Shown piece by piece: positions 3,564-11,108 of a DNA stretch of 21,483 bases. Location: positions 1 through 21,483 of the IMG/VR virus record IMGVR_UViG_3300017744_000190; one strand, written 5' to 3'. The notes beneath the pieces are model-generated. The model was not told where the DNA came from, made no database searches, and was given only the letters and a program-made list of their open reading frames with translations. This DNA comes from a virus. Both the position numbers and the translations under genes were made by a program. The stretch's first letter is position 1, and each line of letters starts with the position of its first letter.

Positions 3564-4213
3564 AAGCATTACTGAGCAGCACTGCTTTTCTTGTAGTCAA
3601 TAAAGAACTTGCTAGGAATATTGGTTTAAAGGAAACAGTCTTGTTAGCTGACTTAATTAGCAAGGAAGAATACTTTATTGAAAAAGGAATGACTGATGGG
3701 TGGTTTTTTAATACTGAAGCGAATATACAGAAAGATACTACGCTTACCCCCTATCAGCAGCGAAAGGCTCTTAAAACTCTTAAGAAGTATGAAATAATAG
3801 AAACTAAACGCAAGGGTGTTCCTGCAAAACAATACTTTAAAATAAATGAAGAACAAGTTGTTCAGTTTCTTAACAACAAGTCCTTAACAAACTTAACTTC
3901 TATTAATAAGAATAAAGAAATAATATTAAATAATAAGTTATCTATAAAAGAAAAATTTGAAAACTTGGTTATGTTCTTTGATTACCCTAAAGAATTAAAG
4001 CAGGAATTTATAGATTATTGGACAGAAAAAAGCTCTGATAGACCTAATGCTAAAATGAGGTATGAAAAACAAGCTACCTTTGATGTCAAGTTGAGATTGG
4101 TTCGTTGGGAAAAAAACAGTAAGAAATGGAATAATAATAAATCTAATAAATCAAAATTAGAAGAACAAATAAGCGAATGGGAAAAAGCAAAGAAATATAT
4201 AGAAAAAATATAA
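3560..4213 (+). CDS. Winged-helix replication protein
   Basis: A 217-residue protein. Residues 48-95 form a winged helix-turn-helix of the type found in plasmid/phage replication initiators and DnaD-like organisers (WFFNTEANIQKDTTLTPYQQ, then a basic helix and a wing ending in YFKI). A low-complexity Asn/Lys linker (about 104-130) joins it to a C-terminal segment with FIDYWTEKSSDRPNAKMRYE and FDVKLRLVRWEKN, a pattern I associate with Bacteroidota phage replication proteins. The last 30 residues are charged and helical. Together with the DnaA-like neighbour it probably starts replication or loads the helicase. Confidence 0.6.
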   Translation: MKALLSSTAFLVVNKELARNIGLKETVLLADLISKEEYFIEKGMTDGWFFNTEANIQKDTTLTPYQQRKALKTLKKYEIIETKRKGVPAKQYFKINEEQVVQFLNNKSLTNLTSINKNKEIILNNKLSIKEKFENLVMFFDYPKELKQEFIDYWTEKSSDRPNAKMRYEKQATFDVKLRLVRWEKNSKKWNNNKSNKSKLEEQISEWEKAKKYIEKI

Positions 4214-4380
4214 TAGAACTAGATGACTACTTCGCCTATAGTGGTAAAGTAGAAATAGATGGTAAGTTTGTTAAACCAAATGATGATTTAATATACCAAG
4301 AAAAATCTATTATAAAAAACGATATGAGTAAGTATAAATTAAAAAACTATTATGAAAACACTTCAGGAAGAAAACATTAA
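4177..4380 (+). CDS. Small hypothetical protein, uncertain
   Basis: A 67-residue frame filling the otherwise empty 138 bases between two replication-region genes. It overlaps the upstream gene by 37 bases and the downstream one by 29. It is polar and Lys/Tyr-rich (GKVEIDGKFVKPNDDLIYQE near the middle), with no recognisable motif. The ATG at 4177 lies inside the previous gene. No other ATG is close to its beginning, so the true N-terminus is unclear. It may be real because it fills the gap exactly, or it may be a chance frame. Confidence 0.4.
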   Translation: MGKSKEIYRKNIIELDDYFAYSGKVEIDGKFVKPNDDLIYQEKSIIKNDMSKYKLKNYYENTSGRKH

Positions 4381-4720
4381 GGAACTAACTGCAAAAGTCT
4401 TGGACTTAGTAGCTAAGACATCAGTAGAGTTAGGACACAGGGCAGATGCAAAGACAATGGCATCACTATCACAAATATTTGCACAAGACTTACAAAAGGA
4501 AAACAGGTTCAGGCGAATGACATTTAACCAAATACAAGATGCTTTTCACATTGGGGTTAGATATTGTGAGTTTGAACCTTTTTTAAATATAAAGACATTT
4601 TTCAGGTGGATTATTGAGCATAAGAAAAAAGTGAATGATGCTTATTACCAAGTACATACACTAAATAAAAACCCTAACCAAGTTCCTTTTTATCAGGAAC
4701 CTTTAAAATTATTAAAATGA
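4352..4720 (+). CDS. Hypothetical replication-region protein
   Basis: A 122-residue mostly helical protein. Features are KTMASLSQIFAQDLQKENRF (about 35-54), RMTFNQIQDAFHIGVRY (about 55-71) and FFRWIIEHKKKVNDAYY (about 85-100). The arrangement of a small helical domain followed by FNIKTFFRWI-like sequence resembles phage proteins encoded beside replication initiators in Bacteroidota phages. A helicase-loader-type role would fit the position but is not shown. It lacks a Walker motif, so it is not itself an ATPase. It is coupled to the next gene by a 4-base ATGA overlap. Confidence 0.55.
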   Translation: MKTLQEENIKELTAKVLDLVAKTSVELGHRADAKTMASLSQIFAQDLQKENRFRRMTFNQIQDAFHIGVRYCEFEPFLNIKTFFRWIIEHKKKVNDAYYQVHTLNKNPNQVPFYQEPLKLLK

Positions 4721-4995
4721 AAACAATAAAAATAACTAAAGAAGAAATCAAGACAGGCAAAGATGCAATTAAATGGCACTTAAAAAACTATGGACATATA
4801 ACAAGTTTAGAAGCTATCAGAGAATATGGTGTTACTAGACTTGCTAGTATTATATGGTATTTAAAAGAAGAAGGTTACACTATACATAGTGAAGATTTAA
4901 AAAAGACTACAAGGTTTGGTAGAACAACTACTATAGCTAAGTATCTGTATTTTAAACCAAAACCAACATTCGAACAGAAAGTAATATGGGGGTAA
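4717..4995 (+). CDS. Helix-turn-helix protein (HTH_39-like)
   Basis: A 92-residue protein with a helix-turn-helix at about 27-58: GHITSLEAIREYGVTRLASI then WYLKEEGYTI. This is the pattern of the small phage HTH family in which a TxxEAxxxyGxxRLaxxI motif precedes a short wing. The C-terminal part is basic (KKTTRFGRTTTIAKYLYFKP). It should bind DNA and could be a regulator or replication accessory. It starts in an ATGA overlap, and its stop overlaps the NinG-like gene by 10 bases. Confidence 0.65.
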   Translation: MKTIKITKEEIKTGKDAIKWHLKNYGHITSLEAIREYGVTRLASIIWYLKEEGYTIHSEDLKKTTRFGRTTTIAKYLYFKPKPTFEQKVIWG

Positions 4996-5399
4996 AGAAA
5001 CCTGTTAGCAAACTAAAAAAAGAGTTAGACAGTTGGTTTTCTAAATACATAAGACTTAGGGAAGCAAATGATTATGGAATGGCTCAATGTTTTACTTGTG
5101 GTAAAGTTGATTATTACAAGAAGTTACAGAACGGACACTTTCAATCTCGCAGACATCATTACACAAGGTGGAACGAACAGAACTGCCAAGTACAATGTGT
5201 TAAGTGTAATATGTTTGAACAGGGGGAACAGTATAAATTTGGTTTAAACCTTGATGCAAAGTATGGTTTAGGAACTGCTGAAGAATTAGAATTAATGGCT
5301 AAGCTAAATATTAAAATGACTAGGATTGATTATGTAGAACAAATCACTTATTACAAAAACCTTGTTAATAACTTTATAAAAGAAAAAAATCTAGAATAA
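4986..5399 (+). CDS. ninG: NinG/Rap-like recombination nuclease, HNH zinc type
   Basis: A 137-residue protein closely matching the lambda NinG (Rap) pattern. It has SWFSKYIRLREAN (16-28), CFTCGK (35-40), NGHFQSRRH (49-57), TRWNEQNCQVQCVKCN (60-75), then GEQYKFGLNLDAKYG. Cys35/38 with Cys71/74 are the likely zinc ligands, and His51 (GHF) the HNH-type catalytic residue. NinG/Rap acts on branched recombination intermediates, helping resolve junctions during phage recombination. Length and motif order agree with the family. It overlaps the HTH gene by 10 bases and closes the replication/recombination block. A stretch of 21 bases separates it from the next gene. Confidence 0.85.
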   Translation: MGVKKPVSKLKKELDSWFSKYIRLREANDYGMAQCFTCGKVDYYKKLQNGHFQSRRHHYTRWNEQNCQVQCVKCNMFEQGEQYKFGLNLDAKYGLGTAEELELMAKLNIKMTRIDYVEQITYYKNLVNNFIKEKNLE

Positions 5400-5408
5400 A
5401 ATATTTTC

Positions 5409-5416
5409 TATATTTG
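5409..5416 (+). promoter_or_regulatory. Possible -7 promoter element
   Basis: TATATTTG fits the host TAnnTTTG element and lies four bases before the ATG at 5421. No TTG is found at the expected distance upstream, so the promoter is incomplete. If it works, the mRNA would be leaderless. The surrounding TTCTAT...ATATG also vaguely resembles the late-unit motif described at 7251, 11187 and 20792. Confidence 0.3.
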
Positions 5417-5420
5417 GAAT

Positions 5421-5777
5421 ATGACTAAACCCATATTTGCAAATACAATGCATCAAATAATTGTTAATGATTATTTGAACCTTATGATGTCTTTTGCAAA
5501 AGAAATATCTACAAAGACAAAATACCAAAATTTTAAAGAAGTACTAGAACTAATTATTGAATATCATAATAGTTATGGGGAAGATGTTTCAATGGGTAAT
5601 TGGAATGATTGGTTAATGATTATACCTATAAATACTTCGGTAATGGTTAATGGTTACTTTGCAGGATTATCTACAAGAAATAACTCAGAAATAATTAAAT
5701 CATATAAATTATTGTTAGACAATAGTTTAGAATTATTAGTCAGAGATTTAAAAGATATAGAATATAATAATGAATAA
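5421..5777 (+). CDS. Hypothetical protein
   Basis: A 118-residue, mostly helical, mildly acidic protein with no family I recognise. Helices are suggested at about 10-30 (IIVNDYLNLMMSFAKEIS), 37-50 (NFKEVLELIIEYHN) and 88-112 (IIKSYKLLLDNSLELLVRDL). A central segment NWNDWLMIIPI is hydrophobic but too short for a membrane helix. It overlaps the sigma-like gene by eight bases, so the two are probably made together. A role as partner or regulator of that factor is possible but not shown. Confidence 0.55.
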   Translation: MTKPIFANTMHQIIVNDYLNLMMSFAKEISTKTKYQNFKEVLELIIEYHNSYGEDVSMGNWNDWLMIIPINTSVMVNGYFAGLSTRNNSEIIKSYKLLLDNSLELLVRDLKDIEYNNE

Positions 5778-6330
5778 AATATATCAAGCAGTAGCAGATT
5801 GTAGAAAGACATTCATAGAGATGTCCTACACTTTTACGCAAGATATAAATGAAATAGAAGAAACAGTTCAGGAGTTAATGTTGTATTTTATGCAGATGAA
5901 CCCTGATACTTTAACGTCAATATATGAAAAAGATGGAACAAAAGGTATTATCAGATATGGTGCAGTAGTCTTGAGAAGAAGTTACACTAGTACACGTAGT
6001 CCGTATTATTATAAATATAAAAAATACTACACACATATTGACACAAGTTCAACTAATATAACTTATGATATAATAGAAAAAGACGATAACAATAGAAAAC
6101 ATTTATACAATATTCCTAACGCTGAAGAATATAAACAATGGCAGAAGTTAGAATTAATAGACAAAGCATTAGATGATTTTTATTGGTATGATAGAGATGT
6201 GTTTAAACTATACTACTATGAAGGAAACACTTTGACAGGACTAGCAAAAAAGACAGGCATAAGCAGGAACAGTTTGTTCACGACTATAGACAAGGTTAGG
6301 GAACAACTAAAAGACTTGCTAGATGAATAA
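5770..6330 (+). CDS. Sigma-70-like transcription factor
   Basis: A 186-residue protein. The N-terminal part (about 20-75) resembles a reduced sigma region 2, with INEIEETVQELMLYFMQMNP and GIIRYGAVVLRRS. Residues 129-186 resemble region 4: LIDKALDDFYWYDRDVFKLY, then GLAKKTGISRNSLFTTIDKV as a helix-turn-helix. The Tyr-rich middle (SPYYYKYKKYYTHI) is basic. Similar factors occur in Bacteroidota phages. I infer that it directs host RNA polymerase to phage middle or late promoters. The repeated motif before the three downstream units is the obvious candidate target. A general DNA-binding protein is the alternative. Confidence 0.65.
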   Translation: MNKIYQAVADCRKTFIEMSYTFTQDINEIEETVQELMLYFMQMNPDTLTSIYEKDGTKGIIRYGAVVLRRSYTSTRSPYYYKYKKYYTHIDTSSTNITYDIIEKDDNNRKHLYNIPNAEEYKQWQKLELIDKALDDFYWYDRDVFKLYYYEGNTLTGLAKKTGISRNSLFTTIDKVREQLKDLLDE

Positions 6331-6721
6331 ATTTTTAGTAAGTGATGAGGTTTACAAAGACAGAATAAACATCTGTAAAGGTTGTGATTATTACTTTAGA
6401 CCTACAGGAAGTTGTAAAGTGTGTTTGTGTTTTATGTCTATCAAGGCACGTATTAGTTTAATGGAATGCCCACAGAAGTATTGGCTAAAGACTAAAGAAC
6501 TAGAACAACCTGAAGGAATACCTGAAGAATTAATAGAAGAAGTAATAACAATATGGGAAGATATAAAAACAGGCATAGCAAAAAATCAAGCAACTAAAAA
6601 AAGAATGATAACATTATTTAATACAATCTATGGAACTAACTACGACACAGGAACAAGTTGTGGTACTTGTCTTAGTGATTGTTTTAAAGGAATAAAAAGA
6701 ATATATGAAAAATACAAATAA
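6323..6721 (+). CDS. Cys-rich zinc-binding protein (DUF6171-like)
   Basis: A 132-residue protein with two cysteine clusters. The N-terminal one is C18, C21, C31, C34, C36 and C49 in ICKGCDYYFRPTGSC, KVCLCFMSIKAR and MECPQKYW, resembling the DUF6171 zinc-binding pattern. The C-terminal one is C113, C116 and C120 in SCGTCLSDCF. Between them lies an acidic helix (IPEELIEEVITIWEDI). The clusters imply structural zinc and perhaps nucleic acid or protein binding. No enzyme activity is evident. It overlaps the sigma-like gene by eight bases and the next gene by 17. Confidence 0.6.
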   Translation: MNKFLVSDEVYKDRINICKGCDYYFRPTGSCKVCLCFMSIKARISLMECPQKYWLKTKELEQPEGIPEELIEEVITIWEDIKTGIAKNQATKKRMITLFNTIYGTNYDTGTSCGTCLSDCFKGIKRIYEKYK

Positions 6722-6950
6722 AACCCCAAACTATTATAAAGGAAAAGTATATGGCTATAAAGCATTTGACATTATAGAAGATTTTGAATTAAATTATAAT
6801 TGTGCTACTGCACTTACTTATATCTTACGTTCAGACAGGAAACACAACAGTCCTGATGAATGTTTGCAAAAAGCTATAGACCATTTGAATAATGAAATAA
6901 AATTATTAGAAAAAAAGAAAAAAAAGAATGTAAGGATAAGTCATATATAA
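6705..6950 (+). CDS. DUF3310-like small protein
   Basis: An 81-residue protein fitting the DUF3310 layout: PNYYKGKVYGYKAFDIIEDF (8-27), CATALTYILRSDRKHNSPDE (33-52), then CLQKAIDHLNNEIKLLE. This corresponds to the H/YY...IE...aiKYllR...K...DLkKAi.YL pattern of the family, which is widespread in phages and lacks a proven function. It is sometimes annotated as nucleotide-kinase-associated, which I would not repeat as fact. The Lys-rich tail comes from an A-run. Its stop codon is inside the left arm of the long inverted repeat at 6947-7006. Confidence 0.65.
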   Translation: MKNTNKTPNYYKGKVYGYKAFDIIEDFELNYNCATALTYILRSDRKHNSPDECLQKAIDHLNNEIKLLEKKKKKNVRISHI

Positions 6951-7006
6951 AGGAGAGTAGGCATATTGCCATAATAATTATTAAATGTTTTTATGCTCTC
7001 CTTTAT
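6947..7006 (+). terminator. Long stem with inner hairpins, terminator or regulatory RNA
   Basis: Perfect 11-bp arms, ATAAAGGAGAG (6947-6957) and CTCTCCTTTAT (6996-7006), enclose 38 bases. These contain a hairpin GGCA-TAT-TGCC (6960-6970) and the palindrome TAATAATTATTA. An alternative pairing of GCATA (6961-6965) with TATGC (6992-6996) would extend the outer stem instead of the inner hairpin, so two competing folds exist. The 3' flank is TTTATTTAAAATAAA, only loosely U-rich. It separates the early/middle genes from the late genes. A terminator is the simplest reading; a processed or regulatory RNA element is the alternative. Confidence 0.5.
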
Positions 7007-7021
7007 TTAAAATAAAATACT

Positions 7022-7255
7022 ATGTTAAAATATCAATGCAATAAATGTGAGATACAAAAAGAACTAAGCAAAGTAACTATGAAAGTTATAGATGGAAAAG
7101 TTGTCAATCTTGGAACTGAATGCCCTGAATGTGGGGAATATATGCAAGAGATAGAAAAGGCATTCGGTGGTTTTCCTTCGCTTAAAAGAACTGAACCAAC
7201 CTTATCAAATAGAAAAGACAAGATGTGGAGTGGGGTAAAAGACAGATTAAACTAA
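7022..7255 (+). CDS. Small zinc-ribbon protein
   Basis: A 77-residue protein with Cys6-x2-Cys9 (YQCNKCE) and Cys34-x2-Cys37 (ECPECGEY), a four-cysteine zinc ribbon. The basic C-terminus includes RKDKMWSGVKDRLN. Similar zinc-ribbon proteins are common just before packaging genes in Bacteroidota phages. A role in DNA binding or in contacting the transcription or packaging machinery is plausible but unproven. It stands alone between the long stem at 6947-7006 and the late-unit motif at 7251, with a 15-base gap before it. Confidence 0.6.
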   Translation: MLKYQCNKCEIQKELSKVTMKVIDGKVVNLGTECPECGEYMQEIEKAFGGFPSLKRTEPTLSNRKDKMWSGVKDRLN

Positions 7256-7280
7256 ATACTAATTAATTCTATTATATACT
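7251..7280 (+). promoter_or_regulatory. Late-unit upstream motif, copy 1
   Basis: This is the 30 bases before the ATG at 7281. They align without gaps to the 30 bases before the ATGs at 11217 and 20822. The core TCTATTATATA (7268-7278) is identical in all three and always ends two bases before the ATG. An AAATA block about 23-27 bases before the ATG is also shared. The host TAnnTTTG element is absent. I infer a phage-specific late promoter giving leaderless or nearly leaderless mRNA. A translation signal is the alternative. Its first five bases overlap the end of the preceding gene. Confidence 0.55.
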
Positions 7281-7838
7281 ATGAAACTAAAAATCAATGA
7301 GTTAAAACCAAACCTCAGCAATCCGAGGATAATAAAAGAAAGTAAATTTAAAAAACTTGTAAAGTCAATAAAAGATTTTCCTGAAATGTTAGAGCTGCGA
7401 CCTATAATCGTAGATGAAGATATGACAATTCTTGGGGGAAATATGAGGTACAAGGCAAGTGTTGAAGCAGGGCTGAAAGAAGTAAACGTAAAAGTAGCTA
7501 AAGGATTAACAGAAGAACAGAAACAAGAGTTTATTGTTAAAGACAATGTGGGTTTTGGAGAGTGGGATTGGAGTATATTAGCTAATGAATGGGATAATAC
7601 AAAGCTAGGAGATTGGGGAATGGACGTATGGCAACCTGAAAAAGAAGTTGATTATTCTATATTAGATGACATAGACTTAGGTTCAACTTTAGATGATAAA
7701 ACCTCAGCAGTAAAAAGAGGGATAGTAGTAGAGTTTGAAGCAGATAACTATGATGAAGCTAACGACCTAATTACACAGGCAAGGAAAGATGGAAAAAATG
7801 TAGGTATGATTGTTCTTAATGCTTTCAGGAATTTATGA
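7281..7838 (+). CDS. ParB/sulfiredoxin-fold protein of the modification cassette
   Basis: A 185-residue protein. Residues 1-75 form a ParB/Srx-like domain: NPR (14-16), LRPIIVDEDM (39-48) and the signature GGNMRYKA (52-59). A middle section holds GFGEWDWSILANEWD, a pattern seen in ParB-like domains that precede DNA methylases in phages. The last 45 residues (about 140-185) form a separate small domain (GIVVEFEADNYDEANDLITQ). No methylase domain follows. ParB-fold proteins bind DNA or nucleotides, and some cut DNA. Here it is coupled by a 4-base overlap to a glycosyltransferase and a TET/JBP oxygenase, suggesting it guides or licenses base modification (inference). Confidence 0.7.
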   Translation: MKLKINELKPNLSNPRIIKESKFKKLVKSIKDFPEMLELRPIIVDEDMTILGGNMRYKASVEAGLKEVNVKVAKGLTEEQKQEFIVKDNVGFGEWDWSILANEWDNTKLGDWGMDVWQPEKEVDYSILDDIDLGSTLDDKTSAVKRGIVVEFEADNYDEANDLITQARKDGKNVGMIVLNAFRNL

Positions 7839-8662
7839 TACCAATTTACATACCATCATATAACAGGGCAGAAACAATATGCACAACAAAATGGTTAGAC
7901 GAAGACAATATACCTTATAAGGTTTTATTACACACAGAGAAATGTAAAAGTGATTATATCAAAGCAGGTGTTGTTAAGGAAAAAAACATAATAGTAACCA
8001 ACGCAAAAAAAGGTATAACTAATCAAAGGAATTGGATAATCAATAATTTAGCAGAGTTAGGTAAATGGTATATATCTTTTGATGACAACATTAGAACATT
8101 CAAAAGGGTAAACGATAAATATTATTTTGATAAGAAAAAAATTGATGTCAATCATAAAGAGATAACTCAAAAAACATTTAACCAAGAAATGAGTGCAAAA
8201 GAATATATAGATTTATTATATAAAGATATAGAAATTGCAGAAAGCATTAAAGCTGAATACATTGGTTATGCAACTGTTGATAATTACTTTTTTAATTCTA
8301 AAAAATATAAAAATGTTGGGTATGTTATATCTAAGGCAGTAGCAATTAAATATCAGGGATTAACTTATGATGAAAATGTAGAAGCTATGGAAGATTTTTG
8401 TTATTGTGCTGAACAATTAATAAAAAACAACTGTGTTCTTATAAATGCTTGGATTAAACCAAAAGCAGGTCATTATGAAAAAGGTGGTATAGGAACTTAT
8501 GATGAAAGAGTAGAAAGAAAAATAATTGATTGCGAATATCTGATGAACAAATATCAAAATTTTTTTAGATATAAAAAGAAAAAAGGTTGCCACCCAAAAG
8601 CAGAATTACAAATCAGATTTAACAACCCTAAACAAATAATAGAATGGAAAAAATCAAATTAG
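7835..8662 (+). CDS. TET-associated-type DNA base glycosyltransferase
   Basis: A 275-residue GT-A-like enzyme. It opens with IPIYIPSYNRA (2-12), the nucleotide-sugar-binding strand. AKKGITNQRNWIINN (57-71) and the acidic metal motif SFDDNI (81-86) follow. This order matches the phage glycosyltransferases described by comparative genomics as associated with TET/JBP oxygenases. Those are proposed to add a sugar to hydroxymethylated bases in DNA. The next gene, overlapping by 19 bases, is such an oxygenase, which strengthens the call. The donor sugar is unknown. The C-terminal 60 residues are basic and may contact DNA. The alternative is a general family-2-like glycosyltransferase acting on surface glycans. 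Confidence 0.7.
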   Translation: MIPIYIPSYNRAETICTTKWLDEDNIPYKVLLHTEKCKSDYIKAGVVKEKNIIVTNAKKGITNQRNWIINNLAELGKWYISFDDNIRTFKRVNDKYYFDKKKIDVNHKEITQKTFNQEMSAKEYIDLLYKDIEIAESIKAEYIGYATVDNYFFNSKKYKNVGYVISKAVAIKYQGLTYDENVEAMEDFCYCAEQLIKNNCVLINAWIKPKAGHYEKGGIGTYDERVERKIIDCEYLMNKYQNFFRYKKKKGCHPKAELQIRFNNPKQIIEWKKSN

Positions 8663-9453
8663 AAAAAGTAGAACACAATAGAAAGGTAGGAAAAAGATGT
8701 GAATACATAGAACCTAACGTAAAAGAAGATTGTTTATTAGAATCAGATGGGGTAATAATAGGCTTTTATATTAAAGATGTAAACAAGTACAGTAAAAAGC
8801 TAGGGGCATTGATAGATATAGCTAACAAAGAGTTTAAAAGTGATAATGTGCCTAAGTCATTATTAGAAAGAAGTGATGTTTTTGCTAATAAATATAAAAA
8901 AGGAATGACACGAAAAGAAGCTAAAGCAATGGGAACTGTACAGATGAGTTCTATACTTGGCTCAATACCACCTAAACCACATATGCGAAGACCTTACCCA
9001 TCAATATCTTCAGTACACAGAGAACCAAAGGCAAAGACATTTATCAAGGCAATGTGGGGAGCCTGTGTTGAAGCTGAAAAGATAGTGAAAGAATTAACTC
9101 CTGAAATATACGACAGGCAAATAGAACTGTTTAAAGAAATAAAAAAAGACTGGAAGTTTGGAAATATGTTTACAAGCAGTATATCTAATTTTAACATATC
9201 AGCACCATTTCACAGAGATACAGGAAACTTAGAAGGAACAGTAAACATAATCCTCACGAAAAGAAACAATGCTAATGGTGGTTGTTTAAACGTACCTGAC
9301 TATAATGCAACATTTGAACAGGCTGATAACTCAATGCTAGTATATCCTGCTTGGAGAAACGTACACGGAGTAACACCAATTAAACCAATAGCTGATGATG
9401 GTTATAGAAACTCATTAATATTCTATCCATTAAAAGCATTTAAAGGAATATAA
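8644..9453 (+). CDS. TET/JBP-family Fe(II)/2-oxoglutarate dioxygenase
   Basis: A 269-residue protein whose C-terminal double-stranded beta-helix carries the full active site. His190 and Asp192 (FHRD) and His241 (VHGVTP) bind iron. Arg255 in YRNSLIFY is the likely 2-oxoglutarate ligand. Between them GGCLNVPDYNATFEQADNSM has the usual strand spacing. The YRNSLxFY ending and the GxLxVPDY segment are hallmarks of the TET/JBP group, which oxidises 5-methylcytosine or the thymine methyl group in DNA to hydroxymethyl. Residues 1-110 form a less familiar N-terminal region. It overlaps the glycosyltransferase by 19 bases and is one base from the small terminase gene. No methyltransferase is seen in the window. 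Confidence 0.85.
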   Translation: MEKIKLEKVEHNRKVGKRCEYIEPNVKEDCLLESDGVIIGFYIKDVNKYSKKLGALIDIANKEFKSDNVPKSLLERSDVFANKYKKGMTRKEAKAMGTVQMSSILGSIPPKPHMRRPYPSISSVHREPKAKTFIKAMWGACVEAEKIVKELTPEIYDRQIELFKEIKKDWKFGNMFTSSISNFNISAPFHRDTGNLEGTVNIILTKRNNANGGCLNVPDYNATFEQADNSMLVYPAWRNVHGVTPIKPIADDGYRNSLIFYPLKAFKGI

Positions 9454-9454
9454 T

Positions 9455-9808
9455 ATGAACAAAGATAGACACATAAAAAAGGAAAGTATTTTAAAAGCAT
9501 TGGAAAAGTCTTTAGGGGTAGTGACAGTTGCCTGTAAATCTTCTGATGTTCCACGTTCAACATATTACAAATGGTTAAACGAAGATGAGGAATTTGCTAA
9601 GGCAGTAAAAGACATTGAGAACATAGCATTAGACTTTGGGGAAAGTCAGTTACACAAGCAGATAGGAGATGGAAACACCTCGGCAACTATTTTCTTTTTA
9701 AAGACAAAGGGTAAGAAAAGAGGATATGTAGAACGTAACGAACTAGATTTAACATCAGGAGATGAACCAATTAAAATTAATGTAAATATAAAAGGGGTTG
9801 AATATTGA
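9455..9808 (+). CDS. terS: Terminase small subunit
   Basis: A 117-residue protein typical of small terminases. A helix-turn-helix at about 22-42 (GVVTVACKSSDVPRSTYYKW) leads to an oligomerisation helix (FAKAVKDIENIALDFGESQL). Then come ATIFFLKTKGKKRGYVER (77-93) and a short beta tail. In this family the subunits form a ring that recognises the packaging site and feeds DNA to the large subunit. It follows the TET/JBP gene by one base and overlaps the large terminase by 11 bases, so modification and packaging genes form one unit. Confidence 0.85.
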   Translation: MNKDRHIKKESILKALEKSLGVVTVACKSSDVPRSTYYKWLNEDEEFAKAVKDIENIALDFGESQLHKQIGDGNTSATIFFLKTKGKKRGYVERNELDLTSGDEPIKINVNIKGVEY

Positions 9809-11108
9809 TACTGAATTTACTGTCACACAAGGACAGGCGATAGAATATCTATTTGACAACAAAACAACAGAAGTATTATTTGGTGGTGCAGCAGGTGGTG
9901 GTAAGTCTTGGGTTGGTTGTAGTTGGTTGATTCTTTTATGTATTAAATACCCTAAGACAAGATACTTAATGGGCAGGTCTAAGTTAGATAGTTTAAAAAA
10001 GACCACTCTAAATACTTTCTTCGAAGTATGTCAGACTTGGGGTATCTTAGCTAATAAGCACTATAACTTCAATGCAGGTTCTAACATCATTAAGTTTTAT
10101 AACGGAAGTGAGATAATACTTAAAGACCTTTTCCTTTACCCATCAGACAGGAACTTTGACAGTTTGGGTTCACTTGAAATTACTGCTGCTTTTATAGATG
10201 AAGCAAATCAGATAACAGAAAAAGCTAAGAACATAGTAGCATCAAGAATGAGGTATAAATTAGACGAATATGGTATTATACCTAAATTGTTAATGACTTG
10301 TAACCCTGCTAAGAATTGGGTATATACTCAATACTATAAACCTGCAAAGGAAGGTGTAGAAAAACCCCACAGAAAGTTTATACAAAGCCTTGTAGATGAC
10401 AATCAATTTATTTCAAAGCATTACAAATCACAACTACTCACTTTAGATGAATTAAGTAAACAAAGATTACTATTTGGTAATTGGGAATATGATGCTACTA
10501 ACGATAACTTAATAGAATATGATGCTATACTTAACTTATTTAGTCAGTTTGGGAAAGAAGGCGATAAATACATCAGTTGTGATGTTGCACGATTTGGAAG
10601 CGATAAAACAGTTATAATGTATTGGGAAGGGCTTCATATCATAAAAATAAGAACGTTGCTTAAATCGGCTGTAAATGAGGTTGTTGAGGAAATTAGAAGG
10701 TTACAACAACAATATGCAGTTAAACTAACAAATATTATAGTTGATGAAGATGGTGTGGGTGGTGGTGTTAAAGATTATATGCGTTGCCGAGGTTTTGTAA
10801 ATAACTCAAAGGCAATCAAAGGAGAAAACTATCAAAACTTAAAAACTCAATGCTATTATAAATTAGCTGACTTAGTAAATACTGCACAAATTGGTATTGA
10901 ATGTCCTGATATAAATATTAAAAACCAAATCATTGAGGAGTTAGAGCAGGTAAGGACAAAAGATGCAGACAAAGACAACAAGCTAAAGATAATACCTAAA
11001 GAAACTGTAAAAGACATAATAGGTCGTTCGCCTGACTATTCTGATGCCTTAGCTATGAGAATGTTTTTTGAGTTAGATGCTAATTATGGTAGGTATTTTG
11101 TTCAATAA
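9798..11108 (+). CDS. terL: Terminase large subunit (ATPase-nuclease)
   Basis: A 436-residue packaging motor. The ATPase domain has Walker A GGAAGGGKS (29-37), Walker B FIDE (132-135) and the coupling motif TCNP (167-170). The nuclease domain has ISCDVARFGSDKT (Asp262), IIVDEDGVGGG (Asp316) and SPDYSDALAM (Asp413/Asp416). The length is normal for the family. The start is TTG at 9798: an in-frame stop lies at 9789-9791, and the first internal ATG falls after Walker A, so a non-ATG start is forced (ATT at 9804 is the only near alternative). It overlaps terS by 11 bases, consistent with translational coupling. Confidence 0.92.
   Translation: MNIDTEFTVTQGQAIEYLFDNKTTEVLFGGAAGGGKSWVGCSWLILLCIKYPKTRYLMGRSKLDSLKKTTLNTFFEVCQTWGILANKHYNFNAGSNIIKFYNGSEIILKDLFLYPSDRNFDSLGSLEITAAFIDEANQITEKAKNIVASRMRYKLDEYGIIPKLLMTCNPAKNWVYTQYYKPAKEGVEKPHRKFIQSLVDDNQFISKHYKSQLLTLDELSKQRLLFGNWEYDATNDNLIEYDAILNLFSQFGKEGDKYISCDVARFGSDKTVIMYWEGLHIIKIRTLLKSAVNEVVEEIRRLQQQYAVKLTNIIVDEDGVGGGVKDYMRCRGFVNNSKAIKGENYQNLKTQCYYKLADLVNTAQIGIECPDINIKNQIIEELEQVRTKDADKDNKLKIIPKETVKDIIGRSPDYSDALAMRMFFELDANYGRYFVQ

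Follow-up and report, generated by a model that had tools for sequence, protein, structure and literature searches.

Phage enzymes of the TET/JBP family that have been characterised act on 5-methylcytosine (5mC), in systems that also include a C5-methyltransferase and glycosyltransferases and bring about cytosine hypermodification (Burke et al. 2021, as reported in PMC12730594). The TET-associated glycosyltransferase (TAGT) of T-even phages glucosylates modified cytosine (PMC13216743). In cultured actinophages with a related TET, including Tonitrus (PMC11955845), Prince and MossRose, a ParB-like gene, a TET, an amino acid:DNA transferase (ADDT/aGPT-PPlase) and a P-loop kinase lie ahead of the terminase and no C5-methyltransferase is found; the gene set of this type in Tonitrus has been described as one for thymidine hypermodification (PMC11955845). 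ParBc proteins also occur in the context of modification genes in carboxymethylcytosine phages, where their function is called unknown (PMC12783734). Associations among TET, TAGT and ParB are already known or predicted (Pfam naming; PMC13216743, PMC12730594, PMC11955845). Kinetoplastid base J, which we liken to these systems by description only, is likewise made in two steps, with oxidation of a C5-methyl pyrimidine by JBP and glucosylation by a glucosyltransferase.

The locus described here lies on a fragment from IMG/VR that is 21,483 bases long (the window; all counts for the window refer to this piece). It shares with the system of Burke et al. a TET/JBP dioxygenase and a DNA glycosyltransferase (GT) but differs from it, as that system is portrayed in PMC12730594, in that the window clade has no consistent C5-methyltransferase, probably acts on thymine, and has a fixed ParB–slot–TET–terminase frame of which the slot is exchangeable. 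Compared with the actinophages, the window has a GT in place of ADDT and kinase, and its TET is about 25–30% identical to theirs. Prochlorococcus phage MED4-184 has the same frame as the window, with an FkbM-type methyltransferase (43.8 bits) in the slot, and the TETs of MED4-184 and MED4-117 are each 46% identical to the window TET over their full length. Among named phages, no close DNA match to the window was found.

Results

Three overlapping genes run into the terminase genes

The features of the locus are as follows.

7281..7838, plus strand: ParB-like gene, 185 aa (ParB_N, PF02195); the invariant 5′ member of the cassette
7835..8662, plus strand: slot gene, TET-associated glycosyltransferase (TAGT, PF20691), 275 aa, GT subtype 3
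7832..8624, no strand: interval exchanged relative to the related loci L004 and L005 (slot breakpoints); identity is lost between the flanks
8644..9453, plus strand: TET/JBP-family Fe(II)/2-oxoglutarate dioxygenase, 269 aa
9455..9808, plus strand: terminase small subunit-like gene (TerS), constant 3′ neighbour
9798..11108, plus strand: terminase large subunit gene (TerL), constant 3′ neighbour (Terminase_3, 60.6 bits)

A first-pass annotation of this DNA had placed three overlapping open reading frames at 7281–9453 and assigned them to a ParB-like protein, a glycosyltransferase and a TET/JBP enzyme. Both the coordinates and the motifs on which it relied (GGNMRYKA, IPIYIPSYNRA and SFDDNI) are present, and the family assignments agree with Pfam scores above all curated cut-offs: 27.3 bits for ParB_N (cut-off 26.3), 32.7 bits for TAGT (cut-off 27.5) and 38.2 bits for Tet_JBP (PF12851; cut-off 34.9). 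The reading frames overlap by 4 bases (ParB/GT) and 19 bases (GT/TET), suggesting translational coupling, and the terminase genes follow immediately, starting at 9455 and 9798. Because more than 200 homologues keep this arrangement, it is not due to chance. For the ParB-like protein and the GT, PHROGs concurs with Pfam. No defence family in PADLOC accounts for the window GT or TET. Elsewhere in the window, a NinG/Rap-type junction endonuclease-like gene lies at 4986–5399 (PF05766, 52 bits).

The oxygenase has a TET fold

The iron triad H190/D192/H241 and the 2-oxoglutarate-binding R255 of the window TET, which the first-pass annotation had singled out as the four key residues, align with the ligands of human TET2 and are invariant among 29 diverse relatives. 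The AlphaFold2 model is of high quality (pLDDT 94, pTM 0.90), and its best 26 matches in the PDB (E 1.2e-11 for the best of them) are exclusively CcTet, TET2, NgTET1 and CMD1. AlkB ranks after these 26 TET-family structures, so that the fold is nearest to that of TET enzymes. By its family and context, the window TET would oxidise the 5-methyl group of a DNA pyrimidine. The PHROGs label of the oxygenase's family, queuine tRNA-ribosyltransferase, is contradicted by the TET fold. The same label has been propagated as a misannotation to the TETs of MED4-184, MED4-117 and many RefSeq actinophages, and in the RefSeq record of MED4-184 the ParB-like gene is labelled DNA methylase; the coordinates noted for these labels are 7995–8780 and 6656–7297 of L001.

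The glycosyltransferase and the ParB-like protein

The window GT (phrog_842 in PHROGs) carries an acidic motif, D83-D84-N85, that is invariant in the GT alignment. Its structural model is poor (pLDDT 66), and a PDB search from that model gave no significant match; among named phages no relative was found at E <= 1e-5. By its family, the enzyme is predicted to add a sugar to the TET-made hydroxyl in the window phage DNA.

The ParB-like protein (phrog_498/620) is encoded in nearly every locus for which the upstream flank is available and also in actinophages, and residues N14, R16, G53, R56, D88 and N89 are conserved across 76 relatives. ParB_N was the only domain found, with no DNA-binding HTH detected by Pfam, and no ParA-like partner ATPase was present among the neighbouring window proteins scanned, making a role in partition unlikely. 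As a guess, the protein might serve in DNA targeting or loading.

A constant frame holds a variable slot

The order ParB–[slot]–TET–TerS–TerL is constant in about 200 related loci, while the gene in the slot varies. Slot GTs fall into nine TAGT-like subtypes with a mutual identity of at most 37%; the TAGT profile is nevertheless matched by 18 of the 21 other slot GTs sampled, and the profile of the window-type GT is homologous to those of other slot GTs (hhalign 99.8%). Alternatives to a GT, besides the FkbM methyltransferase of MED4-184, are a P-loop kinase of 154–160 aa with the motifs GxxGxGKT and EGDR, a relative of Ploopntkinase3 from phage Prince, and ADDT (41–64 bits) fused to or beside the kinase, as in the slots of L104, L122 and L126. 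The window cassette itself contains neither a 5hmU kinase nor an ADDT. In some slots, genes with PLP or FAD folds accompany ADDT/kinase: ADDT and a FAD-dependent oxidoreductase-like gene are found together with the kinase in L122 (330–1858) and with an FkbM methyltransferase in L125 (3747–5281), sets that resemble a multi-step amino-acid-derived base modification which would be built on the TET product. Two different slot GTs stand in tandem in L039 (8599–10004), possibly giving rise to a disaccharide on the base. The slot can also be empty, with ParB followed directly by TET (L157, 827–2260; L175, 5411–6765). In an alternative layout, the tailoring genes (PALP-like, ADDT-like and kinase) lie 3′ of TET just before the terminase, and two ParB-like genes lie upstream (L109, 3113–6480; L113, 3013–6465). 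Arthrobacter phage Prairie (L214, 5816–7146) encodes a TET together with a TAGT-like GT and a GlcNAc deacetylase of the PIG-L type, a gene set that suggests addition of GlcNAc to the DNA followed by its conversion to glucosamine.

Slot genes are exchanged recently and gene-exactly

The first-pass annotation had read the locus as a DNA hypermodification cassette. Family, structure and conserved context lend good support to that reading, which overlooked that the glycosyltransferase occupies an exchangeable slot. Relative to L004 and L005, the window is 93.6% identical over 4134–7832 and 95% identical from 8624 onward, with no match between 7832 and 8624, i.e. the ends of the glycosyltransferase gene. 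Similarly, the TETs of L074 and L077 are 98% identical, yet one slot contains a kinase and the other a glycosyltransferase. Of 41 TET pairs with an identity of 95% or more, 37% have slot genes that are less than 45% identical, and none has a ParB, TerS or TerL below this threshold; for TET pairs with 90–95% identity the slot has been replaced in 58% and ParB, TerS or TerL never. Mapped onto a TET tree with 81 rows, slot type changes at least 37 times, compared to a minimum of 10 and an average of 52.6 for shuffles. When the TETs are less alike, TerL is exchanged too, so that regional recombination is general; at close range, only the slot is affected among the genes that were compared. Slot exchange is thus both recent and gene-exact. 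We found no description of single-gene slot exchange, as judged for Iyer 2013, Burke 2021 and Lee 2022 from papers that cite them.

Thymine is the favoured substrate

The first-pass annotation had left the substrate as either 5mC or thymine. No C5-cytosine methyltransferase (PF00145) is encoded in the 21.5-kb window fragment. Among the records of relatives, mostly fragments, 3 of 47 and 2 of 50 carry PF00145 (5/97 in total), and it is absent from the genome record of MED4-184 (38 kb). A thymidylate-synthase-type hydroxymethylase (PF00303) was found in none of 33 records of relatives. In TET2, H1904 contacts 5mC; the window TET has a leucine, L263, at this position in the alignment. N195, Y261 and L263 are further residues of note in the window enzyme. 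Since neither the methyltransferase nor the nucleotide-level hydroxymethylase is consistently present, since kinase and ADDT partners resemble those of thymidine hypermodification, and since the H1904 position is a leucine, thymine is favoured over 5mC, and we consider it the probable substrate. Other phage TET groups, the P12024L-type TETs among them, also largely lack PF00145 (0 of 11 named phages, 1 of 20), so that the missing methyltransferase is supportive of thymine but not diagnostic for it. The sample for this comparison between TET types included no methyltransferase-linked phage TET as a positive control.

The main alternative is that the same cassette oxidises 5mC made by a C5-methyltransferase of the host, or by one encoded by the phage outside the fragment, and thus generates glycosylated 5-hydroxymethylcytosine. 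The precedents of the characterised phage TETs, as portrayed in PMC12730594, and of the T-even TAGT (PMC13216743) speak for it, as does N195, the retained equivalent of TET2 N1387; moreover, a few relatives in the window clade (L040, L043 and L053; records L091–L094) carry PF00145, and the window is a fragment of a phage that could encode the methyltransferase elsewhere. The rarity of PF00145 among relatives and its absence from MED4-184, the leucine at the H1904 position, and slot alleles (kinase and ADDT) that belong to thymidine hypermodification all count against 5mC, and we regard this alternative as unlikely, although it is the best-surviving rival to oxidation of thymine.

Related loci and the host

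The first-pass annotation had suggested that such a cassette might be uncharacterised in a phage of Bacteroidota type. In sequence, the Nonlabens phage P12024L (Bacteroidota) provides a precedent, its TET adjoining a TAGT-like GT as in the window, and the Pfam name TAGT itself records the pairing. The P12024L TET is of another type, with HxDxxD and an arginine at the L263 position, and the gene order is unlike that of the window, with no ParB slot. Near-identical loci are present in several other contigs. One contig of a Flavobacteriaceae MAG (L221) keeps the order ParB–slot GT–TET–TerS; it could be a mis-binned phage, and we see in it a weak hint of a Bacteroidota host, with which it fits.

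Discussion

Altogether, our results make it likely that the locus is a post-replicative DNA hypermodification cassette in which TET oxidation, probably of thymine, is followed by addition of a sugar with the assistance of a ParB-like protein, and in which the tailoring gene is swappable. In our model, the TET/JBP enzyme would act after replication on a C5-methyl pyrimidine of the phage DNA and hydroxylate its methyl group, most likely converting thymine to 5-hydroxymethyluracil and, less likely, acting on 5mC, and the TAGT-family glycosyltransferase would then place a sugar on the hydroxyl made by TET. The ParB-like protein may assist, perhaps in DNA loading or in the choice of sites. The window GT would be one allele of a single-gene slot, and its replacement by a GT of another subtype, by a kinase with or without ADDT, by an FkbM methyltransferase or by no gene at all would alter the final chemistry of the base. 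Because every class of slot enzyme acts on or needs a hydroxyl or an activated hydroxymethyl group, a TET-made hydroxyl that is finished by the slot enzyme is the simplest reading of the locus. Such a cassette probably helps the phage to evade host restriction, as well as defences directed against a single kind of modified base.

We also considered that the cassette regulates rather than protects, i.e. that limited oxidation and tagging close to the packaging genes would single out phage DNA to be packaged. The strict position of the cassette just before the terminase genes and its constant ParB-like protein of a DNA-binding type would fit such a function; slot chemistry, however, varies freely between near-identical phages and the slot may be empty, as in L157 and L175, neither of which is easily expected of an invariant packaging signal, making this explanation very improbable. 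That the GT is unrelated cargo inserted between ParB and TET, serving for instance in surface glycans, is less probable still: many GT-A enzymes take part in making surface glycans, slot genes are often exchanged and the GT structure search (from a poor model) gave no significant match, but the TAGT match lies above the curated cut-off in the window GT as in most slot GTs sampled, all slot occupants could modify a hydroxyl and include ADDT, a DNA-modification family, and the gene overlaps suggest coupled translation.

Returning to the hypermodification model, these marine phages appear to exchange one chemical coat on their own DNA for another. We tentatively entertain the broader possibility, for which the odds are somewhat against us, that a widespread family of marine phages uses a TET enzyme to oxidise thymine in place, makes base J-like and related DNA, and alters the exposed group (sugar, phosphate, methyl or amino acid) through gene-exact exchange of one tailoring gene, in the manner of serotype switching and in step with host defences aimed at specific modified bases. 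If so, phages would diversify their DNA chemistry as readily as bacteria vary their capsules, one oxidation core being combined with tailoring enzymes that are swapped among phages nearly identical in other respects. The nine GT subtypes, the kinase and the methyltransferase, all of which are expected to work on the same TET product, would form a toolbox for writing modified DNA. Finally, these loci would provide a testable natural system for asking if phage TET-family enzymes act on thymine, a question with implications for how base J arose.
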